Shown piece by piece: positions 4,052-26,054 of a DNA stretch of 64,000 nucleotides. The notes beneath the pieces were generated by a model. That model saw only the letters and a program-made list of their open reading frames with translations, ran no database searches and was not told the origin of the DNA. The stretch comes from Streptomyces hygroscopicus. GTDB lineage: Bacteria; Actinomycetota; Actinomycetes; Streptomycetales; Streptomycetaceae. Each line of letters begins with the position of its first letter. The first letter of the stretch is position 1. The stretch is taken from NCBI RefSeq assembly GCF_026168105.1, contig NZ_LBMW01000004.1, positions 1 to 64,000 on the forward strand. Direction: 5' to 3'. The translations under genes were made by a program, and so were the position numbers.

Positions 4052-4075
4052 GAGCGGCCTCAGACGGGGCCGCTC
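4052..4075. terminator. Hairpin between convergent genes
   Basis: GAGCGGCC and GGCCGCTC form a perfect 8-bp stem around a short loop. It overlaps the stop codon of the PLP gene and lies just after the NRPS stop, so it is a plausible bidirectional terminator. There is no T-run. Confidence 0.4.
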
Positions 4076-6550: not shown

Positions 6551-6799
6551 GGTCCGACCAACCCCGCTGCTGCGCAGGGGTGTTCAGGGTGCACGGTATG
6601 CCGAGGGCCGTCACCCTTTTCCTATGATGACGGCTCGTCGACATCCCTGCGCACCTCCACGAGTCGTGCGCGGACGCCCGAGCCGGCGGCCGGATCCCGC
6701 TGGGCATGCGTCACGACCGTCGGTCCTTCCCGACGGCGCCCATCTGCCTACGGAGGAACGGTGTACCGCCGTCCACGCTGCCCCCGAACCGCCGTCGCC

Positions 6800-6859
6800 C
6801 GCCCTGCAAAGGGACCACAGGGTCCCGTCCGCCCTGCAAAGGCCCCACAGGGGCCCGTC
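6800..6859. repeat. Two tandem 30-bp units, each able to form a hairpin
   Basis: Units 6800-6829 and 6830-6859 share CGCCCTGCAAAGG and CCCGTC. Each holds a self-complementary core: GGGACC-ACAG-GGTCCC in the first, GGCCCC-ACA-GGGGCC in the second. One stem pair changes on both sides (A-T to C-G) so pairing is kept. They lie 31 bp before the YbaK-like start codon, in its likely leader. Confidence 0.55.
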
Positions 6860-6890
6860 CGGCCCGCTGCCCGGCTCGGGGAGGCCCCGG

Positions 6891-7379
6891 ATGCCTGAGG
6901 ACCGCGACGTCTTCGAGCGCCTCAAGGACCTCCTCGATTCCGGCGCGGCGTCCTACCGGACCATCCGTCACGAACCCGAGGGCCGTACCGAAGCCGCCAG
7001 CCGGCTGCGCCGGCACCCGTCGGCGCAGGCCGCCAAGTCCATCGTGGTCCGGGTGGCGACCGGCAAACGCTCGCGCCGCTATGTGCTCGCGGTGGTCCCC
7101 GGTGACCGCCGGGTCGACCTCTCCGCCCTGGCAGTGCGCTACGGCGGCCGGGAGGCCTCCTTCGCCGCCAGGGAGGTGGCCGAGCGCCTGGCAGGCAGCG
7201 TCAGCGGGTCCATCACCCCGTTCGCCTTCTCCGCCGAGCTGGACCTGCTCGTCGACGAGGGCCTGCTGGTCCACGACGAGATCTACTTCAACGCCGGGCG
7301 GCTGGACGTGTCCGTCGCCCTGTCCGTCGCGGACTACGTGCAGTTGGCCAGGCCGGCCGTCGCGGCGATCGCGGTCTGA
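6891..7379 (+). CDS. YbaK/EbsC-type aminoacyl-tRNA editing protein
   Basis: This is a 162-residue single-domain protein of the YbaK/ProX/PrdX deacylase family, which hydrolyses wrongly charged aminoacyl-tRNA. Recognisable parts are AAKSIVVRV (the conserved lysine strand), YVLAVVPGDRRVD, the glycine-rich segment SGSITPFAF and the C-terminal DEIYFNAG. The ATG at 6891 follows GGGGAGG with 7-bp spacing. The gene sits among genes that make the non-protein amino acids Dap and Hpg. A self-protection role, clearing tRNA mischarged with pathway amino acids, is therefore attractive but is inference. It could instead be a housekeeping editor trapped in the cluster. Confidence 0.78.
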   Translation: MPEDRDVFERLKDLLDSGAASYRTIRHEPEGRTEAASRLRRHPSAQAAKSIVVRVATGKRSRRYVLAVVPGDRRVDLSALAVRYGGREASFAAREVAERLAGSVSGSITPFAFSAELDLLVDEGLLVHDEIYFNAGRLDVSVALSVADYVQLARPAVAAIAV

Positions 7380-7410: not shown

Positions 7411-7439
7411 GTTCAAGCGCCGCGCCGATGCAGTTGCAC
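7411..7439. promoter_or_regulatory. Imperfect StrR-type palindrome
   Basis: GTTCAAGCG-N11-CAGTTGCAC matches 15 of 18 positions of the cluster palindrome GTTCAACTG-N11-CAGTTGAAC, with the same 11-bp spacer. It sits between convergent genes, so there is no obvious promoter for it to control. It may be a relic of rearrangement. Confidence 0.45.
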
Positions 7440-7722: not shown

Positions 7723-8748
7723 TCAGCCGTAACGCTTCATCTCGTGGAAGAACCCGGGGACGGTGTGCAGTGCGCCGACCGCGGCGACTTCGTCGTAGAC
7801 GTACTTGGCGACGGCCAGATCGAGTACGCCCAGGCCGAAGGGGGAGAACACGACGGGGCGGTCGGCCGGGGGCGTGGTCCGGCCCTCCAGCAGGTCGTAG
7901 AGGGTTCCGTCGACGAAGTCCCGGGAGCCGGTCCGCTGTTCCGCCAGGTGCGGCGAGGTGTTGGCCTTCAGACAGTGGTCGATGTCGTCGACGAGGTTGT
8001 AGGAGGACAGGATGATCTCCGGGGAGAGATCGCGCAACGAGACGTGCAGGACCATAGGGTTGTGGGAGAACAGCCCCGGGTCGAGGATGTGCGGCTCGCC
8101 CGCCACCGTGGCCAGCACGATCAGGTCCGATTCGGCGATGAGCGACTCGGCGCTGTCGTGGATCGTCACCGAGCCGGCTCCGGAGCGGGTCAGGTACTCC
8201 TCGAAGCCCTCCGCGTGCTCCCGCGCCAGGTCGAAGACGCCCACTTCGTCGAAGGTCAGCCCGTTGGCCACCAGGTAGGTGTGCAGATAGCGGGCGATCA
8301 ACCCGACCCCGATGAACCCGACCCGGCGCGGCGCCACCCCCCGCCGGTCGGCGATCGTCACTGCCGCCAGCGCCGCGGATGCTGCCGTGCGTGAGGCGCT
8401 GATGACGGAGCTCTCCAGGCATGCCAGCGGGTAGCCGGTTGCCGTGTCGTTGAGGACGACCACCGCGGAGGCCCGGGGGATACCGGCGGCGACGTTCTCG
8501 GGGAAGGAGGAGATCCACTTGATGCCGTGCACGTCCACCTCGCCCCCGACCGAGGCGGGCAGCGCGATGATGCGCGAGGAGGGCTGCTCGGGGAAGCGGA
8601 GGAAGTACGAGTCCGGATTCACCGTCAAGCCCTCGCCGTGCAGCCGGTACGCCTGCTCGACCATCGCGGTGACCTGCTTCTCGCGGCCGCGCAGGACGTC
8701 GACGACCTGCTCGCCGGAGATGACGGAGAACGTGGGGGCCTGGGTCAT
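7723..8748 (-). CDS. sbnB: SbnB-type N-(2-amino-2-carboxyethyl)-L-glutamate dehydrogenase
   Basis: This is a 341-residue member of the ornithine cyclodeaminase/mu-crystallin family with the Rossmann motif GFIGVGLIARY and the family segment DDIDHCLKANT. SbnB oxidises ACEGA, the product of SbnA, with NAD+ to L-2,3-diaminopropionate plus 2-oxoglutarate. The start ATG at 8748 overlaps the SbnA stop by 4 bp (ATGA), so the pair is translationally coupled. The N-terminal FSVISGEQVVDVL is typical of Dap-pathway SbnB proteins rather than true cyclodeaminases. With SbnA it supplies Dap for the peptide. Free ornithine cyclodeamination is the alternative, but the pairing makes it unlikely. Confidence 0.9.
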   Translation of the reverse strand: MTQAPTFSVISGEQVVDVLRGREKQVTAMVEQAYRLHGEGLTVNPDSYFLRFPEQPSSRIIALPASVGGEVDVHGIKWISSFPENVAAGIPRASAVVVLNDTATGYPLACLESSVISASRTAASAALAAVTIADRRGVAPRRVGFIGVGLIARYLHTYLVANGLTFDEVGVFDLAREHAEGFEEYLTRSGAGSVTIHDSAESLIAESDLIVLATVAGEPHILDPGLFSHNPMVLHVSLRDLSPEIILSSYNLVDDIDHCLKANTSPHLAEQRTGSRDFVDGTLYDLLEGRTTPPADRPVVFSPFGLGVLDLAVAKYVYDEVAAVGALHTVPGFFHEMKRYG

Positions 8749-9728
8749 GGGTGTCGGCTCCGGTGGGGATCGGTGGACAGGTCGGTTTGGCCGAAGTGTT
8801 CGCGCAGCCAGCTCTCGTCGTAGATGGAGGCGAGGTAGCGCTCGCCGAGGTCGGGGGAGATCGCGACCGCGACGGGCTCCTCGCCCGGGTATTTCTCGCC
8901 GAGCCACCGGGTGGCGCCGCTCACCACCGTGCCGCTCGAGCCGCCGAGCACGAAGCCTCGGGCGGCCATGGCATGGCAGGCGCGGATGGTGTCCGGCTCG
9001 GAGACGTGTACGACGTCGTCGATGCACGATTCGTCGACCAGCTCCGGACGGGTGCTGGTGCCCAGGCCCGGGACGACCCGGCGCTCCGGGATACCGCCGA
9101 AGGTGACCGAGCCGACGGCGTCGACGGCCACGATCGTGACGGGTCTGAGCTGCTCCTTGAAGTAGCGCGCGCACCCCATCAAGGTGCCCGTGGTGCCCGC
9201 GCCGACGAACAGCACTTCCAGGTCGGGGAAGCTGCGGGCGATCGCCGGCGCGGTGTGCTCGTAGTGCGCCCGCCAGTTGTTGGGGTTCGCGTACTGGTTG
9301 AGCCACACGTAGCGGTCGTCGGACGCGCACAGGTCGCGGACGTACCGGATCCGGCTGTGGAGGTAGCCCAGGTTGGCGTCCTGCGTCGAGATCACCCGGA
9401 CCTCCGCGCCCAGTGAGCGCATCAGCCGCTGGGTGGTGGAGTTGCACCGGGGGTCGGTCACGCACACGAAGCGGTAGCCCCGGTCGGCCGTGATGATGGC
9501 CAGCGCGATGCCCAGGTTGCCCGAGGACGACTCCACCAGCACCGAGCCCGGGCCGAGCAGGCCGTCCCGCTCGGCAGCGTCGACCATCTCGGCGGCAGCC
9601 TTCAGCTTGATGGATCCCGCGAAGTTGAACCCCTCGCATTTGAGGTACAGCGGAGTGCCGTTCACCCTGCGCAGATCTATGTAGAGGTCCTCGACGTTGA
9701 ATTCATGAGGAGAGCTGATAATGGGCAT
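8745..9728 (-). CDS. sbnA: SbnA-type N-(2-amino-2-carboxyethyl)-L-glutamate synthase
   Basis: This is a 327-residue PLP enzyme of the cysteine synthase superfamily. NFAGSIKLKAA contains the Schiff-base lysine, ESSSGNLG the substrate loop, and GAGTTGTLMG the phosphate-binding loop. SbnA condenses O-phospho-L-serine with L-glutamate to give ACEGA, which SbnB then cleaves to L-Dap. The ATG at 9728 is preferred because the conserved N-terminus begins there; an upstream in-frame extension looks non-homologous. It is the first gene of a two-gene operon and faces the stand-alone adenylation gene across 278 bp that contains one StrR half-site. Confidence 0.9.
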   Translation of the reverse strand: MPIISSPHEFNVEDLYIDLRRVNGTPLYLKCEGFNFAGSIKLKAAAEMVDAAERDGLLGPGSVLVESSSGNLGIALAIITADRGYRFVCVTDPRCNSTTQRLMRSLGAEVRVISTQDANLGYLHSRIRYVRDLCASDDRYVWLNQYANPNNWRAHYEHTAPAIARSFPDLEVLFVGAGTTGTLMGCARYFKEQLRPVTIVAVDAVGSVTFGGIPERRVVPGLGTSTRPELVDESCIDDVVHVSEPDTIRACHAMAARGFVLGGSSGTVVSGATRWLGEKYPGEEPVAVAISPDLGERYLASIYDESWLREHFGQTDLSTDPHRSRHP

Positions 9729-9829
9729 GGTGCCGGACACCTCGGCAGGACGGTAAATGGGTGGGAAAACGGTCGGCAAGAGGACCGAAGAGTCTGCGTC
9801 AAGAAAGATGCTTTGACCACCTGTCCGGC

Positions 9830-9838
9830 GTTCAACTG
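9830..9838. promoter_or_regulatory. StrR-type half-site in the sbnA/adenylation divergent promoter region
   Basis: This is a perfect GTTCAACTG half-site. The position 11 bp on, where the second arm should lie, matches only 3 of 9. The 9729-10006 region separates two divergent pathway genes, so the location suits a regulator, but a single half-site is weak evidence. Confidence 0.4.
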
Positions 9839-11539: not shown

Positions 11540-11568
11540 GTTCAACTGTCGCGCCGCCGCGGTTGGCC
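11540..11568. promoter_or_regulatory. Degenerate StrR-type palindrome
   Basis: A perfect GTTCAACTG half is followed after 11 bp by CGGTTGGCC, 6 of 9 matches to the second half. It lies after the truncated adenylation gene and before a convergent exporter gene, where no promoter is expected. Confidence 0.4.
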
Positions 11569-13720: not shown

Positions 13721-14518
13721 TCAGTGCTTGTCGAGGAACTCGATGATGGCCGTGTTGACCGCGTCCGGGTTCTCCAGGTTTCCGAGGTGGCCGCAGCCGG
13801 GGATCTCCACGTAGTCGCAGTCCGGGATGGCGTCCGCCACCTCGGCTACCAGGTGGGGAGGGCAGATGAGGTCGTCGGAGAAGGAGATCGCACGGCACGG
13901 CACCCCGAGTCCGCGCAGGGCCTCTCGACGGTCGCCGACGGTGTCGACGGCGTGCTGGCCGGGGGCACTCTGACCTGTGGTCAGTTCGAAGAGCTCCAGC
14001 CATCCGGACACGGTTGCGTCGTCGTTGAGTGTGGTGGGAGACAGCATCTCCAGCACGGTGCGCACGGCCTCGTACCTGGGTGGGAGGGCGATGCCGTCGG
14101 CACGCAGCTCGCGCTCCGCCGCCAGCAACATCCGGCGGGTGGCGTCCGAGCGGGCCTTGGTGGCCATGAGGACGGCGCAACGCACCAGATCGGGCCGGAC
14201 GAGCGCCAGCTCCTGGGCGATCATGGCTCCCATCGAGGTCCCGACGATGCGGCAGGGCCCGACGTCCAGCGCCTCGATCAGCCCGAGGGTGTCCGCGGTC
14301 ATGTCGGCGAGCGAATAGTCGCCGGGCGGCGTGGAGGAGGGGGCGATGCCCCGGTTGTCGAAGACGATCGTCTCGTAGCCCGCCCGGTTCAGAGCCGGTG
14401 TCTGGTGCATGGTCCAAACGCGGCCGGCGGCGCCCGAGCCCATGACGAGGAGAACCGGCTCGCCCTGCCCCGACCGCTGGTAGGAGAGCCTGATCCCGTT
14501 GGCGCTCACGAACGGCAT
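13721..14518 (-). CDS. Alpha/beta hydrolase, copy 1
   Basis: This is a 265-residue alpha/beta hydrolase with nucleophile elbow GTSMGAM, DDLICPPH (acid region) and GCGHLGN (catalytic His). GAGGGAG lies 7 bp before the ATG at 14518. It is very similar over its length to copy 2 at 21 kb. Related hydrolases in glycopeptide clusters (Bhp type) release a beta-hydroxylated amino acid from its carrier protein, which would fit the CmlA-type hydroxylase nearby. Type II editing thioesterase or hydrolytic tailoring are alternatives. It is divergent from mbtH copy 1 across a perfect StrR-type operator and is likely co-transcribed with the exporter. Confidence 0.85.
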   Translation of the reverse strand: MPFVSANGIRLSYQRSGQGEPVLLVMGSGAAGRVWTMHQTPALNRAGYETIVFDNRGIAPSSTPPGDYSLADMTADTLGLIEALDVGPCRIVGTSMGAMIAQELALVRPDLVRCAVLMATKARSDATRRMLLAAERELRADGIALPPRYEAVRTVLEMLSPTTLNDDATVSGWLELFELTTGQSAPGQHAVDTVGDRREALRGLGVPCRAISFSDDLICPPHLVAEVADAIPDCDYVEIPGCGHLGNLENPDAVNTAIIEFLDKH

Positions 14519-14779: not shown

Positions 14780-14808
14780 GTTCAACTGGGGCGCAGGGGC
14801 AGTTGAAC
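14780..14808. promoter_or_regulatory. Perfect StrR-type operator
   Basis: GTTCAACTG-N11-CAGTTGAAC is a perfect palindrome with the same architecture as the published StrR site (GTTCGACTG-N11-CAGTCGAAC). It lies in the divergent region between hydrolase copy 1 and mbtH copy 1, 29 bp upstream of a candidate -35 box. Confidence 0.85.
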
Positions 14809-14837
14809 AGCCGGACGGGTCAGGAGCCGGGTTCCGG

Positions 14838-14868
14838 TTGACGCGCCGAGGCGGCATTTGGCCATAGT
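14838..14868 (+). promoter_or_regulatory. Candidate promoter for mbtH copy 1
   Basis: TTGACG and CATAGT are separated by 19 bp. The same pair with the same spacing recurs before mbtH copy 2 (22036-22066) although the spacer sequence differs, which supports selection on it. The leader to the GTG is about 120 bp. Confidence 0.6.
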
Positions 14869-14989
14869 GGGTCCTCAGGGGGCCCGGCACCGCGCCGGAC
14901 GGCCACCGGCGGTGGGGTGAGGCCGGGCGAACCGCCTGAGAGCTGCCACCGATGCGATGCATCTCCCGTACCCAAGAAAGGACGGCGTG

Positions 14990-15205
14990 GTGACGAATCC
15001 GTTCGAGGATCCCGATGCCGAGTACCTGGTCCTGGTCAACGACGAGGGCCAGCACTCGCTCTGGCCTGTCTTCATCGACGTGCCCGACGGCTGGGAGTCG
15101 GTCTTCGGGAAGGCGGGGCGTCAGGAGTGCCTCGACTACATCGAGAAGTCCTGGACCGACATGCGGCCCAAGAGCCTGATCGAGGCCATGGCTGCGCAGA
15201 AGTAG
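14990..15205 (+). CDS. MbtH-like protein, copy 1
   Basis: These 71 residues have the MbtH signature: TNPFEDPD, then [14 protein letters not shown], then PDGW. MbtH proteins bind NRPS adenylation domains and are needed for their folding or activity. The GTG at 14990 was chosen because AAGAAAGGA ends 7 bp before it and because family members begin MTNPF; an ATG at 14957 would add 11 unconserved residues. It is transcribed alone between an operator-promoter region and a strong terminator. It is nearly the same as copy 2. Confidence 0.93.
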
Positions 15206-15213
15206 CCTGTGGC

Positions 15214-15255
15214 GCCGATGCCGCCGGTCGTCCACGGATGGCCGGCGGCATCGGC
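15214..15255 (+). terminator. Terminator after mbtH copy 1
   Basis: GCCGATGCCGCCGG and CCGGCGGCATCGGC form a perfect 14-bp stem with a 14-base loop, starting 9 bp after the stop codon. Confidence 0.75.
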
Positions 15256-15463
15256 ACGACGGGCACCGGGCGGAGGGTCCGCGGACGGTGGGCAAGCTCA
15301 GTCGGAGGGGGCGACCGGGCCCCTCGTGAATTCCTCCGCAGCGAAATCACAGATGTGCACCTCGCTCGCGCTTTCTCCTTGCTGAATTCCCGGGACTTGA
15401 CGTCTCGCGGACGGCCGAGGTGTATCGGCGAGACCATCACGAACCTCGCGCGACGAGGCCGTT

Positions 15464-15492
15464 GTTCAACTGCGGCATCGCGGCGTTTGAAC
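15464..15492. promoter_or_regulatory. StrR-type operator upstream of the CmlA-type gene
   Basis: GTTCAACTG-N11-CGTTTGAAC matches 16 of 18 positions. It lies in the 569-bp gap between mbtH copy 1 and the hydroxylase, 283 bp before the latter's start, and beyond a terminator. It therefore probably drives the hydroxylase-Hpg operon separately. Confidence 0.75.
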
Positions 15493-15774
15493 GCGTGACC
15501 GCGGCCCGACGTGGTCCCTTCGGCGTTCACCGGTGCTCAAAAGCCGTGCGGTGCCGCAGAGTATTGATCAACCGCGTGCCCCGGAGTCATTCTGATGCTG
15601 AAGAGCACCCTGTGGAGCGAGGCGGGTGTGTTCGGTTCGACGCCCTGAAATTCAGGCTTCGTTGTTTCTTCGCGGTTTTTGTCTCCACGGTCCGGTGTGG
15701 TGGCGCCCGGTGCACAGGCGCAGTGAATCGCGGGCCGGTCGATTTTGTAGGTATCCCTGAAAGGAGGGGCGGAG

Positions 15775-17361
15775 ATGGCTGACGAGCAGTTGTTTCTGCG
15801 GTCCAAGGTCATAGTTGAGCCGATGGTGGACAGGTTCATCGCCCAGCCACACACGATTGCTCCGGTGCAGGCGGCGATGAATCTCGCGTTCCTGCACGTG
15901 CCACTGCTCGAGTCGTATCTGCAGTCCCCGCAGGTGCACGTCGCGGCCAGCAACAACCCCGAGCTGCGCGGCGGTTACTTCATCAACATCCCCGAGGAGC
16001 GCGCCGACGAGGTGCGTGACCTGCTCGCCGCGATCAAGCGGGACCGGGCGGACATGCTGCGGTTCGCCGAGGCGATCGCGGCCGGCCAGGAGCTGCTGCG
16101 GACGAACGCGACCGGGTTCGACCTCACCCCGCTCTACCCGAAGCTTCCTGCGGAGCTCGGCGGCCTGGTCGAGCTGGCCTACGACACGGACAACCAGGCG
16201 CAGCTGCGCGTCATGGAGCCCTTGGTCTACCAGAGCCCCGTCTACACCGAGGCACGCCAGTCGGTGCAGCTGTCCTTCGAGACCGGCATCGAGCGCCCGT
16301 TCATCCTGAGCACTCCGCGACTGACCTCGCCGGACGTCCTCGAGATCGACGTTCCGTTCCGTCACGAGGGGCTCGCGGAGCTGTTCAAGACCCGCGTGCG
16401 GCCCACGACGCTCGGCCACCTGCGCGAGGCCCTGGGTCTCGACGACGCCCAGACGGCCCAGCTGTCCGGGATGCTCAGCGACAGGCCCAGCCTGGCGGAG
16501 GACCGCCACATCGAGAACGGAGGCCGGATCCGGTACTTCGGCCACGCCTGTCTTGTGCTGCAGACGCCCCAGGCGGCCATCGTCACCGACCCGTTCATCA
16601 GCGCGGACAGCGACGCCGACGACCGCTACACGCTCGACGACCTGCCCGACTTCATCGACCTCGTCCTCATCACCCACGGCCACCAGGACCACATCGTCAT
16701 GGAGACGCTGCTGCAGCTCCGCGGCCGCGTCGGGGCGATCGTGGTGCCGCGCTACTCCAAGGGCAACCTGGCCGATCCGTCGATCAGGCTGATGCTCGAA
16801 AACCAGGGCTTCCCGGTGATCGAGGTCGACGACTTCGACGAGGTCGAGTTCCCCGGCGGCAAGATCACCGCGACGCCGTTCCTCGGTGAGCACTGCGACC
16901 TGGACATCCGCGCCAAGTCGACGTACTGGGCCGAGCTCGCCGGCAAGAAGGTCTTCATCGGCGCCGACTCCTCCGGTATCGAGCCGCAGCTCTACCGCTA
17001 CATCAAGAACCACCTGGGTACGGCCGACTACGCCTTCCTGGGCATGGAGTGCGACGGAGCGCCGCTGACCTGGCTCTACCAGGCGCTGCTGACCATCCCG
17101 GTCACCAAGAAGATGAGCAACTCGCGCAAGCTGTCGGGCTCCAACGCGGAACAGGCCGCCGCGATCATGACCGAGCTCGGTGCCAAGGAGGCGTACGTCT
17201 ACGCCATGGGCGAGGAGGACTGGCTCGGCCACGTCATGGCCACGACGTACAACGAGGACACCTACCAGATCAAGCAGATCGAGGAGTTCCTGAAGTGGTG
17301 CGCGGACCGCGGCATCAAGGCGGGCCACCTCTTCAAGCAGCAGGAGTGGCGCTGGCAGTGA
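15775..17361 (+). CDS. CmlA-type di-iron beta-hydroxylase acting on carrier-bound amino acids
   Basis: The protein has 528 residues, close to CmlA (about 532). A family-specific N-terminal domain (about 1-245) is joined to a metallo-beta-lactamase-fold domain. The metal motif THGHQDH gives H301, H303, D305 and H306; E372 (LGEHCDLD) and D398 (GADSSG) are further ligand candidates. These lie 4-5 residues from the CmlA positions I recall. CmlA oxidises the beta-carbon of an amino acid tethered to an NRPS carrier, so this is not a beta-lactamase. AAGGAGG precedes the ATG. It heads a probable operon with the Hpg genes. The substrate is unknown. Confidence 0.88.
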   Translation: MADEQLFLRSKVIVEPMVDRFIAQPHTIAPVQAAMNLAFLHVPLLESYLQSPQVHVAASNNPELRGGYFINIPEERADEVRDLLAAIKRDRADMLRFAEAIAAGQELLRTNATGFDLTPLYPKLPAELGGLVELAYDTDNQAQLRVMEPLVYQSPVYTEARQSVQLSFETGIERPFILSTPRLTSPDVLEIDVPFRHEGLAELFKTRVRPTTLGHLREALGLDDAQTAQLSGMLSDRPSLAEDRHIENGGRIRYFGHACLVLQTPQAAIVTDPFISADSDADDRYTLDDLPDFIDLVLITHGHQDHIVMETLLQLRGRVGAIVVPRYSKGNLADPSIRLMLENQGFPVIEVDDFDEVEFPGGKITATPFLGEHCDLDIRAKSTYWAELAGKKVFIGADSSGIEPQLYRYIKNHLGTADYAFLGMECDGAPLTWLYQALLTIPVTKKMSNSRKLSGSNAEQAAAIMTELGAKEAYVYAMGEEDWLGHVMATTYNEDTYQIKQIEEFLKWCADRGIKAGHLFKQQEWRWQ

Positions 17362-17437
17362 CGCGCTTCTGACTCCTGGCGGATCCCTGACGAAACACCA
17401 CCGACTCCGGCCACCAGCACCTTCAGGAGGTACTCCC

Positions 17438-18457
17438 GTGGTTGCGCACGACATCGCCTACGTCGAGCTCTACACCAGAGACAAAGTGTCCACCGTCGAC
17501 TACTTCGTCTCGGCCATGGGCTTCACGCGGGTCGCTGACTCCGTGGAGGTCGACAGGAGTTCGGTGTTGCTTCGTCAGGGGGAGGTGCAACTGGTCGTCA
17601 CCTCCGGCCGGGGTATCTGGAAGTTCCTGGACGAACACGGCGATGGCATCGCTGACATCGCGATGACCTGCGACGACGTGGAGACGAGCGCCGACGCCGC
17701 GGCGGCGGCCGGTGCTCGGGTGACCCGCTCGGCACAGGGCCTTCCCCTCGTGTCGGGGTTCGGCGACGTCTCCCACACCCTCATCCCTGCCGAGGGCCCC
17801 ACGATCGGGCTGCCCGTCGGCCGCAACTGGGTCGCCACAGCGGGGGCGCCCCTGAGGCCGGCGGGCCGGATCCAGCTCCTCGACCATGTCGCGATTTGTC
17901 TGGAAGGGGGCAGCCTGGGGAAGTACGCCGACTTCTACCGCGACGCCTTCGGGCTCTCCCGGTACTCGTCGGAGTATGTCGCCGTCGGTGGGCAGGCGAT
18001 GGACTCCATCGTCGTGCGCAGCGGATCCGGCCGAGTCATCTTCACGCTGGTCGCCCCCGACCCGGGCAAGGACGCCGGCCAGCTCGATGCCTTTCTGGAG
18101 CGCAACGGCGGCCAGGGCGTGCAGCACCTGGCGTTCCTCGTGGAGGAGATCATTCCCGCGGTGCGGGAGTTCCGGGACGCCGGTGTGGACTTCCTCTCCA
18201 CCCCGAGCACGTACTACGACATGCTCACCGAGCGCATCGCCGATCTGCGGGGTGAGATCGACGCACTCAAAGACGCCCAGGTTCTCGCCGATCGCGACGA
18301 GTGGGGCCACCTCCTGCAGCTGTTCACCCGCTCGCCGTACCAGCGCAACACGCTTTTCTTCGAACTCATACAGCGCCGGGGCTCCCGCGGATTCGGCAGC
18401 GCCAACATCCGGGCCCTGTACGAAGCGGTGGAGCGCGACCGGCTGACCGCCGGATGA
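17438..18457 (+). CDS. hmaS: 4-Hydroxymandelate synthase
   Basis: This 339-residue two-barrel Fe(II) dioxygenase converts 4-hydroxyphenylpyruvate to 4-hydroxymandelate, the first step to 4-hydroxyphenylglycine. The facial triad is readable as H150 (LLDHVAI), H230 (VQHLAFL) and E309 (LFFELIQ). All three are offset by exactly 11 from the H161/H241/E320 triad of Amycolatopsis HmaS as I recall it. Its length is that of HmaS rather than the somewhat longer 4-hydroxyphenylpyruvate dioxygenases, and the HmO-HpgT partner settles the assignment. AGGAGG precedes the GTG start. Its stop overlaps the next gene's start (ATGA). Confidence 0.92.
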   Translation: MVAHDIAYVELYTRDKVSTVDYFVSAMGFTRVADSVEVDRSSVLLRQGEVQLVVTSGRGIWKFLDEHGDGIADIAMTCDDVETSADAAAAAGARVTRSAQGLPLVSGFGDVSHTLIPAEGPTIGLPVGRNWVATAGAPLRPAGRIQLLDHVAICLEGGSLGKYADFYRDAFGLSRYSSEYVAVGGQAMDSIVVRSGSGRVIFTLVAPDPGKDAGQLDAFLERNGGQGVQHLAFLVEEIIPAVREFRDAGVDFLSTPSTYYDMLTERIADLRGEIDALKDAQVLADRDEWGHLLQLFTRSPYQRNTLFFELIQRRGSRGFGSANIRALYEAVERDRLTAG

Positions 18458-20883
18458 GCGTCACCGGATCGTCCGCCCGCCTGCTCACCCTGGCCGACTA
18501 CGAGACCAAGGCCCGCCGGAGCTTCGATCCCGGTGTCTGGGACTTCCTGGCGGGAGGCGCGGGACAGGAGCGTACCCTCGCGGCCAATCTGGAGGCGTTC
18601 GGGCGGACGCGGCTGAGACCACGGGTACTGACCGGTCTCGGAGTGCCCGAAACCAAGTCCACGCTCCTGGGCCGTACCTGGTCGCTGCCGGTCGCCGTCG
18701 CGCCCGTGGCCTACCACGCACTGGCTCACCTGGACGGCGAGGTCGCGACGGCCCGCGCCGCCGGGGCGGCCGGTGTCCCGTTCGTCGTCAGCACCTTCGC
18801 AAGCCGGAGCTTCGAGGACATCGCGGAGGCGGCCACGGGTCCGCTCTGGCTCCAGGTGTACTGCTTCCGCGACCGTGCGACGACACGGCGCCTCGTGGAA
18901 CGTGCCGAGCGGGCCGGGTTCGAGGCGCTGGTGCTCACCGTGGACGCCCCCCGGCTCGGACGCCGGCTGCGGGACCTGCGCAATGACTTCAGGCTGCCGC
19001 CGGGTGTGGTGCCGGCCAATCTCGCGGGCGGCGACTACTCCTCGCCCAGCGGCCACGCCCTCACCGAGTTCGATCCGTCGCTCGACTGGTCGGTCATCGA
19101 GTGGCTGCGGTCCATCAGCTCACTCCCCGTGCTGGTCAAGGGAGTTCTGGCTGCCTCTGACGCCCGGCGGGCCGTCGCCGCGGGCGTCGACGGCGTCGTG
19201 GTGTCGAACCACGGCGGCCGGCAGCTGGACGGCGCCCCCGCAACGCTCGACGTGCTCCAGGACATCGCCGTGACGGTCGACGGCGCCTGCCCGGTTCTCG
19301 TCGACGGGGGAGTACGCTGCGGTGCGGACGTTCTGGCGGCCCTGGCCCTGGGCGCCGATGCCGTCCTTCTGGGCCGCCCGGTGCTGTACGGCCTCGCGGT
19401 GGCCGGACAGCAGGGCGTTGCGGACGTCCTGGGCATCGTCACCGAGGAACTGACCGAGGCGATGACGCTCACCGGAACACGTTCGACCAGCGAGGCTACG
19501 CGCCAACTTATATGGAAAGAGGGGGAGTTGGAGCCGTCGTCCGAAACCGCGGCCGACCGTCCGGCCCCGCGGCCCGGGACGCAGCGTGGCCCCGGACTAC
19601 GGAAGGAGGACCTGCACGGCAGTGTCTCCGACCCGGTCCTCGACACCATGAACTTCCTCAACGAGGTCACTCACCGCTATCCCGAGGCGATCTCGTTCGC
19701 TCCGGGCAGGCCGTACGACGGATTCTTCGAGACAGAGCAGATCTTCACGTATCTCCGTCGCTACCTGGACCATCTGGAAGCGGGCGGTGCTTCGCCCGCC
19801 CAGGTTCGCTCGGCACTCTTCCAGTACGGCCCGACCGGCGGCCAGATCCGCGAACTCGTCGCCGAGTCACTGCGCCTGGACGAGGGCATTGATGTGCTGC
19901 CGGAGGCCATCGTGGTCACTGTCGGCGCGCAGGAGGCGATGCTCCTCGCGGTGCGGGCGCTCATCTCCGGTCCGGAGGACGCGCTCCTCGTCTCCAGCCC
20001 CTGCTATGTGGGCATCACCGGCGCCGCCCGTCTGCTCGACGTCGTACCGACCGCGGTCGCGGAAGCCGAGGGCGGATTCCGCTGCACCGACCTTGAGACG
20101 GCCATCCACGCCGAGCGTGCGCGCGGGCGCAGACCCCGAGCCTTCTACGTCGTGCCCGACCACTCGAATCCGTCCGGGACCACCATGTCCCTGGAAGCCC
20201 GTCGGGAGCTCCTCGATCTCGCGGAGCGGGAGGACATCCTGATCCTGGAGGACAGCCCCTATCGCATGGTCAGTCCGGGCGAGCAGTTGCCGACGCTCAA
20301 GTCCCTCGACCGGAGCCGCAGGGTGCTGCACCTCGGCTCGTTCGCCAAGACGCTCTTCCCTGGTGCCCGGATCGGCTTCGCCGTCGCGGACCAACTCGTC
20401 GTCGACGGCGACGGGCGCAGCGGACTCCTTGCGGACGAACTCGCCAAGATCAAGAGCATGGTGACGGTGAACACCTCCCCGGTGAGCCAGGCGGTGGTCG
20501 GGGGCATGCTCGCCGCCGCCGGCGGGCGAGCCTCGGAGTTCACCACCGAGACCGCCGCCTACTACGGCGACGCGATGCGGGTCACCCTGGAGCAACTGGC
20601 GGTCCGCTTCCCGGAGGACGAACAGGCCGAGCTGGGCGTGCGCTGGAACGAGCCCAGCGGCGGTTTCTTCCTCACGGTCACGGTGCCGTTCCGCGCGGAC
20701 AACGCCGCGCTGGTGCGCTCGGCGGAGGAGTTCGGGGTCATCTGGACTCCGATGTCGTACTTCTATCCCGAGGGCGGAGGGGAACACACCCTTCGACTGT
20801 CCGTCAGCTACCTGACGCACACCCAGATCACGGACGGGGTCGCGCGGCTGGCACGGTTCATCAGGGCCCACGCCCGCGCATGA
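18454..20883 (+). CDS. Fused hydroxymandelate oxidase-hydroxyphenylglycine aminotransferase (HmO-HpgT)
   Basis: This single 809-residue protein does the last two steps to 4-hydroxyphenylglycine. Residues about 1-350 are an FMN alpha-hydroxy-acid oxidase (LVKGVL; SNHGGRQLDG with active-site H253) that makes 4-hydroxybenzoylformate. A Pro/Arg/Gly-rich linker of about 40 residues follows. Residues about 395-809 are a fold-type I aminotransferase (DHSNPSGTTM, EDSPYR, SFAKTLFPGAR with PLP lysine K632). In most clusters these are separate genes; I recall a comparable fusion in the enduracidin pathway. Overlap with hmaS by ATGA shows an operon. The 3' end abuts a fragment of an ABC exporter on the other strand. 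Confidence 0.9.
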   Translation: MSVTGSSARLLTLADYETKARRSFDPGVWDFLAGGAGQERTLAANLEAFGRTRLRPRVLTGLGVPETKSTLLGRTWSLPVAVAPVAYHALAHLDGEVATARAAGAAGVPFVVSTFASRSFEDIAEAATGPLWLQVYCFRDRATTRRLVERAERAGFEALVLTVDAPRLGRRLRDLRNDFRLPPGVVPANLAGGDYSSPSGHALTEFDPSLDWSVIEWLRSISSLPVLVKGVLAASDARRAVAAGVDGVVVSNHGGRQLDGAPATLDVLQDIAVTVDGACPVLVDGGVRCGADVLAALALGADAVLLGRPVLYGLAVAGQQGVADVLGIVTEELTEAMTLTGTRSTSEATRQLIWKEGELEPSSETAADRPAPRPGTQRGPGLRKEDLHGSVSDPVLDTMNFLNEVTHRYPEAISFAPGRPYDGFFETEQIFTYLRRYLDHLEAGGASPAQVRSALFQYGPTGGQIRELVAESLRLDEGIDVLPEAIVVTVGAQEAMLLAVRALISGPEDALLVSSPCYVGITGAARLLDVVPTAVAEAEGGFRCTDLETAIHAERARGRRPRAFYVVPDHSNPSGTTMSLEARRELLDLAEREDILILEDSPYRMVSPGEQLPTLKSLDRSRRVLHLGSFAKTLFPGARIGFAVADQLVVDGDGRSGLLADELAKIKSMVTVNTSPVSQAVVGGMLAAAGGRASEFTTETAAYYGDAMRVTLEQLAVRFPEDEQAELGVRWNEPSGGFFLTVTVPFRADNAALVRSAEEFGVIWTPMSYFYPEGGGEHTLRLSVSYLTHTQITDGVARLARFIRAHARA

Positions 20884-20940
20884 GAAGCGTGGTCCCGGAC
20901 GCGTTGAACCGCTCGCGCATCATGCGCAGCAGACGGGTCC
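20882..20940 (-). pseudogene. Fragment of an MsbA-type exporter
   Basis: The reverse strand reads LLRMMRERFNASGTTLL, which aligns with STLMSERFNVAGAML of the exporter at 11.7-13.7 kb (near its residue 230). The flanking codons are not conserved. It lies just downstream of hydrolase copy 2, where the exporter stands relative to copy 1, so it looks like the decayed exporter of the duplicated block. The match is short. Confidence 0.5.
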
Positions 20941-21003
20941 GCGCTCGGCCCTGACCCGGGCGTACCGCCGCACGGTGCCGGGTTCGATCCGCTGACGCGT
21001 GTG

Positions 21004-21807
21004 TCAGTACTTGTCGAGAAATTCGATGATCGCGGCGTTGACGGCGTCGGGGCGCTCCAGATTGCCGAGGTGCCCGCTGTCGGGAATCTCCATCAAGTCG
21101 CAGCCGGGGATGGCGTCGGCCACCTCGGCGACCAGGTGCGGCGGGCAGATCAGGTCGTCGGCGAAGGCGATGGCCCGACAGGGCACGGTGATCCCCCGCA
21201 GAGCCTCACGTCGGTCACCGGTGTGGGAGACCCACGCCTGCCCCTCCGCGGTGGTGTCGTTGCCGGCGGTCAGTTCGAATATCTCCAGCCAGGACGCGAC
21301 GGAGGCGTCGTCGTCCAGCGTCGCCGGGGACAGCATCTCGAGGACCGTTCTGGCTGCCTCGTACTTGGGGGGCAGCCTGATTCCGCTCTCCCGCACCACT
21401 TGTTCCGCCACCTGCAGTGCTCGCCGCGTCGTGTCCGAGCGCGCCCTGGTGGCGAGCAGAACCGCGGAACGGACCAAGTGCGGGCAATCAAGGGCCAGTT
21501 CCTGGGCGATCATGGCGCCCATGGAGGTCCCGACGATGCGGCACGGTCCGAGCTGCAGGGCCTCGATCAGCCCCCTGGTGTCGGCGACCATGTCGGCGAG
21601 CGAGTACTTCCCCTCAGGGGCGTCCGACGCCCCGATGCCCCGGTTGTCGAACACGATCGTCTCGTATCCCGCTTGCTGCAGCGCCGGTGTCTGGTACATC
21701 GTCCAAACGTGGCCCGCGGCTCCCGAGCCCATGATGAGGAGGACGGGCTCCCCACGGCCCGCGCGCTGGTAGGAGAGGCGGATGCCGTTCGTGCTCACGA
21801 AGGGCAT
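21004..21807 (-). CDS. Alpha/beta hydrolase, copy 2
   Basis: This 267-residue paralogue of the hydrolase at 13.7 kb shares the start MPFVS, elbow GTSMGAM, acid region DDLICPPH and end GHLGN. Identity by eye is about 70%. The ATG at 21807 follows GAGGG at 7-bp spacing. As with copy 1 it is divergent from an mbtH gene across a perfect StrR-type operator. The exporter that follows copy 1 is missing here and only a short fragment remains. Two copies may process two different carrier-bound residues, or one may be redundant. Confidence 0.85.
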   Translation of the reverse strand: MPFVSTNGIRLSYQRAGRGEPVLLIMGSGAAGHVWTMYQTPALQQAGYETIVFDNRGIGASDAPEGKYSLADMVADTRGLIEALQLGPCRIVGTSMGAMIAQELALDCPHLVRSAVLLATRARSDTTRRALQVAEQVVRESGIRLPPKYEAARTVLEMLSPATLDDDASVASWLEIFELTAGNDTTAEGQAWVSHTGDRREALRGITVPCRAIAFADDLICPPHLVAEVADAIPGCDLMEIPDSGHLGNLERPDAVNAAIIEFLDKY

Positions 21808-21965
21808 GGCGCGCCCTCGTTGCAGATGATCGTGTGCATGGGGGTCTCCTGATCGACGTAGGGGAGGCGGGAGGACGCGCCGGGGGCCCTTCGGGCTCGC
21901 AGGACCACCATGGCACCGGGCCGTCACGCTGATCAAGACACGCCCGTACGGCCCTGGTCGGGGTC

Positions 21966-21994
21966 GTTCAACTGAGGCATCGCCGCAGTTGAAC
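21966..21994. promoter_or_regulatory. Perfect StrR-type operator, duplicated block
   Basis: GTTCAACTG-N11-CAGTTGAAC has both halves perfect and the same 11-bp spacing as the site at 14780, but a different spacer sequence. It is centred between hydrolase copy 2 and mbtH copy 2. Confidence 0.85.
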
Positions 21995-22066: not shown

Positions 22067-22196
22067 GGATCTTCAGTGGGGCCGACCGGTGTCCGAGGCA
22101 GCCACCGCACCCGGACGACGGCGTGAGCCGGAACCCCGGCCGCTCGCTGCCCGCCACCGACGCGAACCACATCAAACCCCGAGAGAGGATGACGTG

Positions 22197-22409
22197 GTGA
22201 CGAACCCGTTCGAAGACCCCGATGCCGACTACCTGGTCCTGGTCAACGAGGAGGGCCAGCACTCCCTGTGGCCGGTCTTCGTCGATGTGCCCGACGGCTG
22301 GAAGTCGGTGTTCGGGCAGGCGGGACGGCAGGAGTGCCTCGACTACATCGAGAAGAACTGGACCGACATGCGTCCCAAGAGCCTGATCGCGGCGATGGAG
22401 CAGAAGTAG
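22197..22409 (+). CDS. MbtH-like protein, copy 2
   Basis: These 70 residues begin [16 protein letters not shown] and keep the family signature HSLWP. They differ from copy 1 at only a few positions (for example K for E before SVFG). The second GTG of GTGGTG is chosen as start, 7 bp after GAGAGAGGA. It acts as a chaperone-like partner of adenylation domains. Two near-identical copies in one cluster are unusual and follow from the block duplication. Confidence 0.93.
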
Positions 22410-22619: not shown

Positions 22620-23429
22620 ATGAGCGGCAGGTTGACGCGTCGGGTGCGTGCCTTACCTCTGCGTTCCGGCGGGCGTCCGTCCGCGGGAGCCCGCGTGACC
22701 TCGGTGGCGTCCGGGCTCCGCTGGGCGTCCTCGCGGTGGTCCTTCGTGGAGCAGGAAGTGGCCGGCCTGCGTCAACTCGTGCGGCCGGGAGCCGTGTGCC
22801 TCGACATCGGGGCCGAGTACGGCCTGTACACGTGGAGCCTTTCCGCGCTGGTGGGGCCGTCCGGGCAGGTGCACTGCGTCGAACCGCTGCCAGGCCCTGC
22901 GACGTGGCTGCGAACCACGGCCGCCGCTCTGGGCTGTGACAACGTCATCGTGCACCGTATGGCTCTGGGGGAGCGGGCCCACGAAGGGACGATGAGCCTG
23001 CCGCGGCGGCGCCTGCTTCCGGTGCACGGACGCGCCTATCTCACCGAGGGTGCTTCGGGGCCGGGCCCGAACGTCGAGTTCCCCGTCTCCCGTCCGGTTC
23101 CCACGGCGGTGCGGACGGTGGACGGGTTGTGCCGGCACATGGGGCTGGAGCGGGTCGACTTCATCAAGGCCGATGTCGAAGGGGCGGAGGCGGCCGTGCT
23201 GTCCGGGGCGCGGCGCACGCTGCAGGAGCACCGGCCCGTTCTGCTGCTGGAAATCGAGGACCGTCATCTGGCCAAGTACGACATGAAGTCGAGGGACCTG
23301 GTCGACCGGCTCGCCGACCTCGATTACGACATGTACCGATGGCGCGAGGGGGGTTGGGAGCGCGTGGCGTATGTCACGGACGACTGCCGTAACTACCTGT
23401 TCTCGGCGTCTTCGATTTCCCTCGGCTGA
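22620..23429 (+). CDS. FkbM-family SAM-dependent methyltransferase
   Basis: This is a 269-residue class I methyltransferase of the FkbM family. The SAM loop is CLDIGAEYGLYTW (the family often has DVGANxGxY), followed by HCVEPLP and the family motif DFIKADVEGAEAAVL. FkbM proteins usually O-methylate sugars or polyketide/peptide hydroxyls. The ATG at 22620 follows GAAAGG at 6 bp; an in-frame GTG one codon earlier is possible. It is 16 bp upstream of the glycosyltransferase, so the two probably form an operon that adds and methylates a sugar, or methylates the peptide. The acceptor is unknown. Confidence 0.82.
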   Translation: MSGRLTRRVRALPLRSGGRPSAGARVTSVASGLRWASSRWSFVEQEVAGLRQLVRPGAVCLDIGAEYGLYTWSLSALVGPSGQVHCVEPLPGPATWLRTTAAALGCDNVIVHRMALGERAHEGTMSLPRRRLLPVHGRAYLTEGASGPGPNVEFPVSRPVPTAVRTVDGLCRHMGLERVDFIKADVEGAEAAVLSGARRTLQEHRPVLLLEIEDRHLAKYDMKSRDLVDRLADLDYDMYRWREGGWERVAYVTDDCRNYLFSASSISLG

Positions 23430-23445
23430 AGGATCCGACTCATCC

Positions 23446-24600
23446 ATGGGTTCCACCCTTGTCATCACCAACGACTTCCCGCCCCGTCAGGGAGGGATCG
23501 AGACGTTCGTGCATGCCATGACCACGCGTATGCCGGACGACGACGTCGTGGTCTACACCTCGCACGAGCCCGGCGACACCGCCTACGACGCGACCCTCCC
23601 CTTCCCCGTGGTACGGGACGGTACGCGCACGCTGCTGCCGACCCGCCGTGTCACCAGGAGGGCCGTCGAGATAGCCCGGGCTCATGGCTGCGACCGGGTC
23701 TGGTTCGGGGCGGCGGCGCCCCTGGCCTTGATGGCACCGGCCCTGCGCCGGGAGGGCATCCGACGCATCGTGGCCACCACTCATGGTCATGAGATCTGGT
23801 GGGCCCGGACTCCCGGTGCGCGCGGGATGATGCGCCGGATCGGCAACGGCGTGGACGTCGTCACCTACCTCGGCCAGTACACACGCGACCGGATCGCACC
23901 CGCCCTCGGGCCCCGTGCGCAGCTCAGCCGCCTGGTCCCCGGGGTGGACGCGCAGGTGTACCGGCCCGACGCCGACGCGCGCGACGAACTGCGCGCACAG
24001 CTTGGCCTGCACGGCAAGCGCGTGATCCTCTGCGTGGCGCGCATGGTCCCGCGCAAGGGCCAGGACATGCTCATCCGGGCCCTCCCGCTGATCAGGCGGC
24101 AGGTGCCCGAAGCGGTGCTGCTCGTGGTCGGCAAGGGGCCGGACGAAGCCCGGCTGCGGAAGCTGGCGCGCCGCCACGCCGAGGGCGCGGTCTGGTTCGC
24201 GGGCGGCAAGGCGCACACCGAGACACCGCGGTACTACGCGGCGGCGGACGCCTTCGCCATGCCGTGCCGTACCCGTAAGGCGGGGCTGGAGGCGGAGGGG
24301 CTCGGGATCGTGTTCCTGGAAGCGGCGGCGAGCGGGCTGCCGGTGGTCGTCGGGGACTCCGGCGGCGCCCCGGACACGGTGCTCGACGGCACGACCGGCC
24401 GGGTCGTGGACGGCACCGATGCCACGGCGATTGCCGAGGCGCTGACCGGGATACTGCTCGATACCGACCGGGCCGCGGCGATGGGTACCGCGGGCCGCAC
24501 GTGGGTTCAGGACTCCTGGTCCTGGGACGCCTCCGCCCGCCACCTGATGCAGTTGCTGACACCCGAACACATGCCGGTGGTGACCCCCGCCAAGGAATAG
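23446..24600 (+). CDS. GT4-family (GT-B fold) glycosyltransferase
   Basis: This 384-residue protein has the GT4 N-terminus NDFPPRQGGIETF, the donor-site strand VARMVPRKGQDMLI and the retaining-GT motif EGLGIVFLEAAASGLP. It resembles mannosyltransferases of the PimB type, so a GDP-mannose donor is possible but not proven. The ATG at 23446 is 16 bp after the methyltransferase stop. In context it likely decorates the peptide. A housekeeping lipid mannosylation role is the alternative, since PimB-like enzymes are universal in actinomycetes. Confidence 0.82.
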   Translation: MGSTLVITNDFPPRQGGIETFVHAMTTRMPDDDVVVYTSHEPGDTAYDATLPFPVVRDGTRTLLPTRRVTRRAVEIARAHGCDRVWFGAAAPLALMAPALRREGIRRIVATTHGHEIWWARTPGARGMMRRIGNGVDVVTYLGQYTRDRIAPALGPRAQLSRLVPGVDAQVYRPDADARDELRAQLGLHGKRVILCVARMVPRKGQDMLIRALPLIRRQVPEAVLLVVGKGPDEARLRKLARRHAEGAVWFAGGKAHTETPRYYAAADAFAMPCRTRKAGLEAEGLGIVFLEAAASGLPVVVGDSGGAPDTVLDGTTGRVVDGTDATAIAEALTGILLDTDRAAAMGTAGRTWVQDSWSWDASARHLMQLLTPEHMPVVTPAKE

Positions 24601-24938: not shown

Positions 24939-26054
24939 TCAGCCGGCCGTCCTGCGCGTGAGAGGCTGGTCGCGTTCATCGAGGTGCTGTGCGAACTTCA
25001 GCCAGGTGTCGGCGTATTGGCGAGCGAGGCTCCCCACCAGTGCTCCGCAGTGCGGCGGTACAGCCGCGGTAAGGCCGGACCACTCCGCCAGCGCGTTCTG
25101 TTGCAGGAGTCGCAGTAGATGCCGCCCCTCCTCCTTGAGCCGCAGCGAGGGGTCACGCAGGAGCTTTTCGAGCACCTGGACCGGATCGGGCTGTGCCGGC
25201 CGCGTGAGGCGTTCATCTCGTCGCCGGCCACCCCCGAAGGGGACAGTGACGTCACCCTCGCCCTCCCCTTGCGTCGCGGCCGCCACAGCGGGCCCGGGGG
25301 CCGGTGCCGGCGCCGTAGAAGGCCTGAGGGCCTCCGGCCGCACTGCCGAGGGTAACTCACCGGCCTGGAGGCGCTTTCGGACATCGCTCGCGGTAGCGGG
25401 CGAGATTCCCGCGATCCGCGCAACCTCGCGCAACGAGGCCTGAGGGTTCTGGGCCATTACTTCGGCGGCTCGCCAACGGCCCTTCGCGCTGCTGAGCGGG
25501 CGCACTCGCCCGTCGCGGCCAACCCGTGCGTTCAACTGCGGAACGGAGTCAGTGGCACGGCGTCGGATGGAGGCCACGGCCTTGGCCCCCAGGCCGGAGG
25601 CCCGTGCTATGGCCCGGTCCGACATGTGTGGATGCGATGCGACGATCCGCGACGCGGCGGCGCGCCGATCGGCCTGCGACAGCGGCAGACCGTGCGCGAT
25701 GTTGGCTTGGACCGCGCGCAGGAAGGCGTCTTCCGCGGAACCTTCGAAGAATTCGACGTCGACGGTGTCCTGCCCTCGGGCCAATGCGGCCAGGAGCCGG
25801 TGCGTGCCATCGATCACGCGCATGTCTGAACGGCGGACGAGTATGGCGGGCAGGGGCCCGTCGACGTCGGCCAGCCGCGCGACGTGCTCCTGGTCGGGAC
25901 CCTGTGACCGGGGGGACTCACCGGGCAGGAGGGCTGCGATCGGAACGGGAGTGGTTTTCGGCCCGCGGGCTACGGCGGGCGCGGAAGCGCTCTCCTGACG
26001 GCTGATGGCTCTGCTGTGCGCCGGAACGGGTATTCCGTCGTCTGCCTGATTCAT
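24939..26054 (-). CDS. StrR-family (ParB-like) pathway-specific activator
   Basis: This 371-residue protein has a ParB/sulfiredoxin-like N-terminal domain (about 35-130, with VIDGTHRLLAA), a middle DNA-binding part with helix-turn-helix LREVARIAGISPATASDVR (about 207-226) and a basic, Pro-rich C-terminal part. StrR, Bbr and NovG have this layout and activate antibiotic genes from GTTCGACTG-N11-CAGTCGAAC sites. Near-identical palindromes at 14780, 15464 and 21966 are its probable targets. Leu codon 234 (25353-25355) is TTA, so it should be made only when the bldA tRNA is present. It is probably the last gene of the peptide cluster. The start at 26054 follows GGGG. Confidence 0.9.
   Translation of the reverse strand: MNQADDGIPVPAHSRAISRQESASAPAVARGPKTTPVPIAALLPGESPRSQGPDQEHVARLADVDGPLPAILVRRSDMRVIDGTHRLLAALARGQDTVDVEFFEGSAEDAFLRAVQANIAHGLPLSQADRRAAASRIVASHPHMSDRAIARASGLGAKAVASIRRRATDSVPQLNARVGRDGRVRPLSSAKGRWRAAEVMAQNPQASLREVARIAGISPATASDVRKRLQAGELPSAVRPEALRPSTAPAPAPGPAVAAATQGEGEGDVTVPFGGGRRRDERLTRPAQPDPVQVLEKLLRDPSLRLKEEGRHLLRLLQQNALAEWSGLTAAVPPHCGALVGSLARQYADTWLKFAQHLDERDQPLTRRTAG
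25530..25558. promoter_or_regulatory. StrR-type palindrome inside the activator gene
   Basis: GTTCAACTG-N11-CAGTGGCAC matches 16 of 18 positions with exact spacing, inside the coding region of the activator. It could give feedback control by a roadblock, or could be chance within codons for PQLNA. Confidence 0.45.

Follow-up and report, generated by a model that had tools for sequence, protein, structure and literature searches.

The window analysed here is the whole stretch of 64,000 nucleotides, located on contig C73 of a Streptomyces hygroscopicus genome (8,647,062 bases in 159 contigs). The following genes are found around the palindromes described below:

5-4033 (+): terminal NRPS module with the domain order C-A-T-TE (domain search)
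7723-9740 (-): SbnB/SbnA-like 2,3-diaminopropionate pair (above NCBIfam cut-offs)
13721-14518 (-): alpha/beta hydrolase 1 (domain search)
14957-15205 (+): MbtH-like protein 1 (PF03621)
15775-17361 (+): CmlA-type diiron beta-hydroxylase (PF18456)
17438-18457 (+): HPPD-like protein (TIGR01263), from its context probably the 4-hydroxymandelate synthase HmaS of the Hpg pathway
18301-20883 (+): fused FMN dehydrogenase-aminotransferase, probably Hmo-HpgT-like, with an uncertain ORF start
21004-21936 (-): alpha/beta hydrolase 2; its actual start probably lies near 21807
22194-22409 (+): MbtH-like protein 2 (PF03621)
24939-26054 (-): StrR-family transcriptional activator of 371 aa (P0001), with a ParB-like N-domain, HTH units and a C-terminal helical domain

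Beside the NRPS gene lie a threonine/serine dehydratase-like gene (4060-5175) and a gene encoding an aminoacyl-tRNA editing domain (6519-7379). Two regions lie outside the cluster. The genes at 29.2-42 kb resemble a catabolic operon for amino acids, in which an oligopeptide-type ABC transporter comes first and FAD oxidoreductases and an aldehyde dehydrogenase come after it. The product of 51363-55406 has ALF repeats and a pretoxin HINT domain.

A first-pass annotation of this DNA had described palindromes of the form GTTCAACTG-N11-CAGTTGAAC, two of them perfect (14780 and 21966) and one at 16/18 positions (15464), in front of the mbtH/hydrolase pairs and the CmlA-type gene. All three were recovered by a scan of the window, and the gene contexts agree. 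At up to three mismatches (numbers in brackets) the window contains six palindromes, at 14780 (0), 21966 (0), 15464 (2), 25530 (2), 7411 (3) and 11540 (3), compared to none in 100 dinucleotide-shuffled replicates:

7411-7439 (no strand): weak 15/18 copy where two convergent genes meet (3'-3')
11540-11568 (no strand): weak 15/18 copy where two convergent genes meet (3'-3')
14780-14808 (no strand): perfect StrR-type predicted operator, with the divergent hydrolase (13721-14518, -) and mbtH (14957-15205, +) genes on either side
15464-15492 (no strand): 16/18 predicted operator upstream of the cmlA-type gene
21966-21994 (no strand): perfect predicted operator, with the divergent hydrolase (21004 to about 21807, -) and the second mbtH gene (22194-22409, +) on either side
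25530-25558 (no strand): operator-like palindrome, 16/18, within the strR coding sequence, +497 to +525 relative to the start codon

The distance from the end of the palindrome at 15464 to the cmlA-type gene is 283 nt. The half-site GTTCAACTG occurs eight times in the window, at six places (9830, 11540, 14780 twice, 15464, 21966 twice and 25530), with 0.14 occurrences expected. This bears out the earlier count of six half-site places between 9.8 and 25.6 kb, one of which, 25530, turned out to be part of the 16/18 palindrome inside strR. The place at 9830 was considered as a full site and rejected, its second half being unrecognisable by eye. There are two copies of the hydrolase-operator-mbtH module, at 13.7-15.2 kb and at 21.0-22.4 kb, which share 75% (827 bp) and 88% (236 bp) DNA identity. 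The two weak copies flank the SbnA/SbnB-adenylation block, and a promoter would be unexpected at either.

The whole genome was scanned for the palindrome, with the pattern read backwards as control. At up to three mismatches nine places were found (three perfect, one with one mismatch, three with two and two with three) compared to one for the control. Six of the nine are on C73, all of them in the window, and contigs C93, C100 and C102 carry one each; the sites are thus not spread evenly over the chromosome. Sites upstream of NRPS genes outside the window, which the first-pass annotation had proposed to look for, were found at C93:5078 and at C100:79672, the latter with a P450 gene on one side and an NRPS gene on the other. 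The third place, C102:37701, is located inside a second strR gene. Promoter positions are occupied by five of the nine places, namely the two hydrolase/mbtH sites, the cmlA site and the two NRPS sites outside the window. The three additional contigs carry NRPS genes or the second strR: NRPS genes are found near the places on C93 and C100, acyl-CoA dehydrogenase, ACP and P450 genes near that on C100, and prephenate dehydrogenase, two-component and transporter genes near that on C102. Genes of the kinds known from ramoplanin/enduracidin-type lipodepsipeptide clusters (Hpg genes, NRPS, acyl-CoA dehydrogenases with ACP, a StrR-like regulator) are present on C73, C93, C100 and C102; these contigs are not joined in the assembly and may be parts of one cluster.

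Five other genomes, chosen for large contigs with a strR relative, contain 5, 7, 2, 2 and 6 places at up to two mismatches, and the control pattern gave none in any of them. All sites of S. seoulensis fall within 69 kb and those of Nonomuraea thailandensis within 98 kb; the two sites of Streptomyces sp. CB01881 are 307 kb apart. N. thailandensis has a related cluster. We compared 42 query proteins drawn from the window, C93, C100 and C102 with this genome, where 18 match at 50% identity or more within a single 100-kb stretch (2.758-2.857 Mb); the two hydrolases, the two MbtH-like proteins and the two StrR proteins each match one N. thailandensis gene per pair. The remaining 24 stay below this threshold in the stretch, including acyl-CoA dehydrogenase (ACAD), ACP, MMPL and two-component proteins; neither the ACAD and ACP proteins nor the products of 4060-5175 and 6519-7379 have a match there at E<=1e-10. 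Six of the seven N. thailandensis sites are located at counterparts of sites found here: before cmlA (at 2759302, about 200 nt upstream), before the hydrolase gene, in the P450/NRPS gap, before the NRPS gene best matching that on C93, in the gap that separates an ABC gene from mbtH, and within the strR gene. The seventh is at 2799980. The matching positions across genera support a function of the sites.

The promoters of the cluster (in the window, the genome and N. thailandensis) carry palindromic targets of the form GTTCRACTG-N11-CAGTYGAAC. The consensus for NovG, the regulator of novobiocin biosynthesis, is GTTCRACTG(N)11CRGTYGAAC, in which R covers the A variant seen here. The window motif also resembles the published StrR consensus, GTTCGActG(N)11CagTcGAAc (PMC8306873). 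The A in place of G that had been noted as a departure from classical StrR sites is indeed present, at half-site position 5, and it is common in relatives. In the named strR loci (the best 80 of 551 relatives) we found 118 sites of at least 15/18 in 1.54 Mb, compared to 9.5 in shuffled sequence, where any site occurred by chance in 6/80 loci. Among the extragenic sites of these loci, pair 5-25 is A/T in 72/87 and G/C in 7/87, and the A form is present in 54/80 loci.

The regulator gene, placed at 25 kb by the first-pass annotation, was confirmed as a StrR-family gene by alignments with relatives and by a ParB-type fold with HTH. P0001 aligns over most of its length with 55 relatives, with 30 invariant columns, and a plasmid homologue with 43% identity is annotated as 'streptomycin biosynthesis operon regulator'. 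An NCBIfam search assigned no family to P0001; Pfam gave one HTH above cut-off (HTH_24) and listed no ParB domain. An AlphaFold model of the protein (pLDDT 82.8, pTM 0.51) was compared with solved structures using Foldseek, with Noc, ParB and KorB as best matches, mostly over about 200 columns. There were 26 matches at E<=0.001 (best 3.4e-6), with query-normalised TM-scores of 0.17-0.30 and target-normalised scores of 0.30-0.52; the low query-normalised scores perhaps reflect domains that are placed differently. A second strR gene in the same genome (C102:37211-38323) is 79% identical and likewise has an intragenic palindrome of 16/18. Streptomyces sp. ISL-100 has a similar strR pair, with 17/18 (locus L052) and 14/18 (locus L044).

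Protein family, StrR-like motif, confinement to four contigs and the site positions in N. thailandensis together support the StrR-type regulon that had been proposed from the first-pass annotation. The palindromes very probably mark genes switched on by a StrR-type activator, and a regulon of this type is ordinary for StrR/CmlR-type activators. The StrR-family activator (24939-26054, -), probably together with its paralog on C102, would bind the 29-bp palindromes and switch on the mbtH, hydrolase, cmlA and NRPS transcription units, which, judging from their genes, probably belong to one peptide cluster using Hpg and diaminopropionate.

The palindrome inside strR (25530-25558) covers the codons CGT GCC ACT GAC TCC GTT CCG CAG TTG AAC, encoding residues 166-175 (RATDSVPQLN). 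In the model, helix 157-168 (block pLDDT 88) ends within this segment and is followed by a loop (block pLDDT 66) leading to strand 176-178. We investigated how often strR-family genes carry such a palindrome with the pattern GTTCRRCTG-N11-CAGYYGAAC, requiring at least 15/18. Set one comprised 110 strR-family ORFs. Of these, 30 loci came from a group of 41 related genomes, and 80 were the best of 551 confirmed relatives in named genomes, a choice that favours the closest relatives. Positions were counted from the glycine of the GxDG motif (G in 108/110), and 109 ORFs could be anchored. The palindrome is present in 37/109 at exactly offset -38 and at no other ORF position; at a threshold of 14, 41 were found at -38 and two elsewhere. 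Set two, scored afterwards with a text-pattern anchor, consisted of 85 loci: 24 new ones from a search of 101 genomes of the genus, 60 stretches from matches in these 101 and in the 41 related genomes, and the plasmid homologue. Seven without the anchor pattern were dropped and 78 kept. In 23 of these the palindrome is at -38, in five it is shifted to -41, -44 or -47, and in two it is at +204 (at a threshold of 14: 24 at -38, seven at shifted offsets and four elsewhere). The shifted offsets correspond to in-frame linker indels. Three genes duplicate set one, leaving 75 new genes with 22 at -38 (27 with indels). Altogether, 59/179 distinct anchored genes carry the palindrome at -38, and 12 named actinobacterial genera are represented among carriers. 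The homologue on the S. globisporus C-1027 plasmid, which adjoins SgcE6, has a palindrome of 16/18. In some loci (L097, L172 and L187 among others) the 11-nt spacer is itself symmetric by eye, approximately GGA-N3-TCC, extending the palindrome to nearly 29 bp.

A palindrome within an ORF might simply result from a conserved stretch of protein (R-S-T-x5-Q-L-N) combined with codon bias, the regulon being an ordinary StrR regulon and nothing more. Some observations fit this explanation: the segment begins with the last residues of a well-predicted helix, and a mild protein consensus (P-Q, ARVGRDG) is also found in palindrome-free genes. The protein sequence alone does generate palindromes, since redrawing synonymous codons yielded on average 12.2 of the 109 genes in set one (maximum 20 in 500 shuffles) and 4.0 of the 75 new genes in set two (maximum 9 in 500). 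The observed numbers, 37 and 22, nevertheless exceed all 500 shuffles in both sets. In addition, the palindrome survives in-frame linker indels in five genes, and about two thirds of the genes (120/179) do not have it at -38.

The codons of the two arms were then compared in the 179 distinct genes, not chosen by the tested arm, contrasting genes in which the other arm matches at 8/9 or more with those at 6/9 or less (7/9 omitted; relatedness ignored). CGT, TCA and TTG, otherwise rare codons, appear when the other arm is intact. The left Arg is CGT in 35/41 genes with a right arm of at least 8/9 and in 6/52 with 6/9 or less (p 2e-13, ignoring relatedness), and the left Ser is TCA in 36/50 compared to 2/24. 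Similarly, Thr is ACT in 15/35 compared to 0/11, and the right Leu is TTG in 24/31 compared to 3/18, relatedness again being ignored. Asn AAC and Gln CAG showed no arm dependence in this test; both are preferred codons anyway. Codon choice in one arm thus tracks the other arm, which argues for selection on the DNA and not only on the protein. On a tree of 107 rows, with linker columns excluded, presence of the palindrome changes 18 times, at least seven of these on supported branches (mean for shuffled labels 30.9), so that effects of a few founders are limited, if not excluded. Covariation at pair 5-25 (21/5/3/11, p 0.0005) was discarded as standalone evidence, being too confounded by relatedness. 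Genes without the motif do not on average contain an alternative self-complementary sequence (3.1/9 pairs compared to a background of 2.8, 68 genes). Taken together, both gene sets and the arm comparison show that an operator sequence inside the regulator ORF is conserved at the DNA level, and a mere by-product is very improbable.

Inverted repeats of this length could also fold in RNA, and the palindrome might act as a hairpin in the strR mRNA with a 9-bp stem and an 11-nt loop, for which the symmetric spacers of some genes (GGA-N3-TCC, by eye) could be taken as a sign. The pair counts fit poorly with a stem: the most frequent departure from the palindrome, C-A at pair 8-22 (19/41), breaks the stem pair but keeps a NovG-type half-site, and A-C is found at pair 5-25 in 5/41. 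The Y at position 8 of the NovG consensus would match this most frequent departure. The letters follow the StrR operator instead of varying freely, and on these counts we rejected the hairpin as very improbable.

StrR-type sites usually serve downstream promoters, and the palindrome might therefore serve the next gene, as an upstream activating site whose promoter lies within strR or just downstream of it. A co-directional downstream neighbour is indeed present in 18/29 site-bearing named loci (determined with a crude gene caller), but the same arrangement is found in 23/44 site-free loci. In the window the gene downstream of strR, a glycosyltransferase gene (23371-24600, +), is convergent and leaves no close next-gene target. 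Since neighbour orientation is not clearly different between the two groups, activation of the next gene was rejected as decidedly unlikely. The same observations favour autoregulation through the ORF.

We therefore consider it likely that the StrR-type regulon on 29-bp palindromes includes an operator embedded in strR that is under selection at the DNA level and is most likely autoregulatory, probably by negative feedback. The sequences suggest that strR carries a built-in switch for its own control: the palindrome would be a true operator within protein-coding sequence, maintained by selection on DNA, and the regulator would most likely bind inside its own gene and adjust its own expression. 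Feedback is probably negative, with elongation blocked by a roadblock, the sign being a guess; binding, autoregulation and sign are all inferred from sequence. An operator inside the ORF moves with the gene to any new promoter.

Comparison of intragenic sites with sites up to 800 nt upstream gave one gene with both, 36 with the intragenic site only, 15 with the upstream site only and 57 with neither (Fisher p 0.010); this exclusion was not significant when paired on the tree (7 pairs). Looping between an upstream and an intragenic site was rejected because the two rarely co-occur. Among the named loci (best 80 of 551), an external site of at least 15/18 is absent from the flanks examined in 16/31 that carry the intragenic palindrome, compared to 15/49 of those lacking the intragenic one, and the link to a regulon is thus unseen in half of the intragenic-site loci. 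As counterpoints to an embedded operator, both paralogs studied here reach only 16/18 and one ISL-100 gene only 14/18, the palindrome is missing at -38 in 120/179 genes, and the encoded segment is partly ordered protein.

The fold of P0001 allows a further reaching interpretation, which we regard as unlikely: StrR-family regulators might be ParB-type nucleotide-gated clamps whose genes contain an intragenic loading site, in analogy to parS in spo0J, with autoregulation portable between clusters and sliding that would counter nucleoid silencing over kilobases. In Bacillus, parS sits within the parB-type gene spo0J. The GxxRxxA motif is kept in StrR relatives, with G83 and R86 invariant and A89 almost invariant. 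Box III (N118..HGLP) differs from the ParB motif, and VirB is absent among the 50 Foldseek matches listed. A term search for StrR in the main text of a PNAS 2025 survey of the ParB-CTPase fold gave no hit (PMC12704722). Were the clamp interpretation true, sliding would help StrR-type activators to counter nucleoid silencing over kilobases.

The regulon is of a familiar kind, and its palindromes help to show which genes are targets in an unstudied peptide cluster. The embedded operator has wider relevance, being found at the same position in a third of the strR-family genes sampled (59/179), and it predicts self-control in a regulator family that is used to awaken silent antibiotic clusters. 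Overexpression constructs with a native, palindrome-bearing ORF would also carry the operator, and recoding could raise yields in laboratory producers. Searches limited to promoters would overlook it. In the open-access literature searched, we found no paper describing an operator within a strR-family gene; an earlier description may exist, the key papers dating from 1995 and 2005. Retzlaff and Distler reportedly described 'multiple recognition sites' of StrR in 1995, which might include a site in strR. According to part of a meta-analysis, 92% of validated sites in such clusters are located between -371 and +94 nt (PMC12527672). A StrR operator inside strR is not mentioned in the available parts of PMC10886168, PMC10135024, PMC6022936, PMC7852140, PMC2657911, PMC5840217, PMC7230496, PMC13379591, PMC8406272, PMC12704722, PMC13170358, PMC12527672, PMC8306873 and PMC7567792.

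Among known systems, the CTP-dependent DNA clamps (ParB, Noc, KorB and VirB) resemble P0001 in that Noc, ParB and KorB are the best structural matches of the model and in that StrR relatives retain the GxxRxxA motif. A close parallel in regulation is StrR of Streptomyces griseus and S. glaucescens, which belongs to the same protein family and has the same half-site, N11 spacing and multiple sites per antibiotic cluster; the system described here differs in the A at half-site position 5 and in serving a peptide cluster. CmlR of S. venezuelae is a StrR relative with an operator between divergent operons, as at the hydrolase/mbtH pairs in the window. The StrR motif led to that site, and EMSA confirmed it (PMC8406272); as far as the available part of that study goes, CmlR sites were sought in intergenic and promoter regions only, whereas one of the palindromes here is intragenic. 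Bbr, Dbv4 and AoStrR1 of glycopeptide clusters are StrR-like activators whose sites have a similar overall span but a different half-site, GTCCAR-N17-TTGGAC or the same with N18 (PMC6022936; PMC7852140). Bbr and AoStrR1 have been reported to bind upstream of their own genes (PMC6022936; PMC7852140); their autoregulation thus acts via the promoter, whereas the autoregulation proposed here would act via the ORF.
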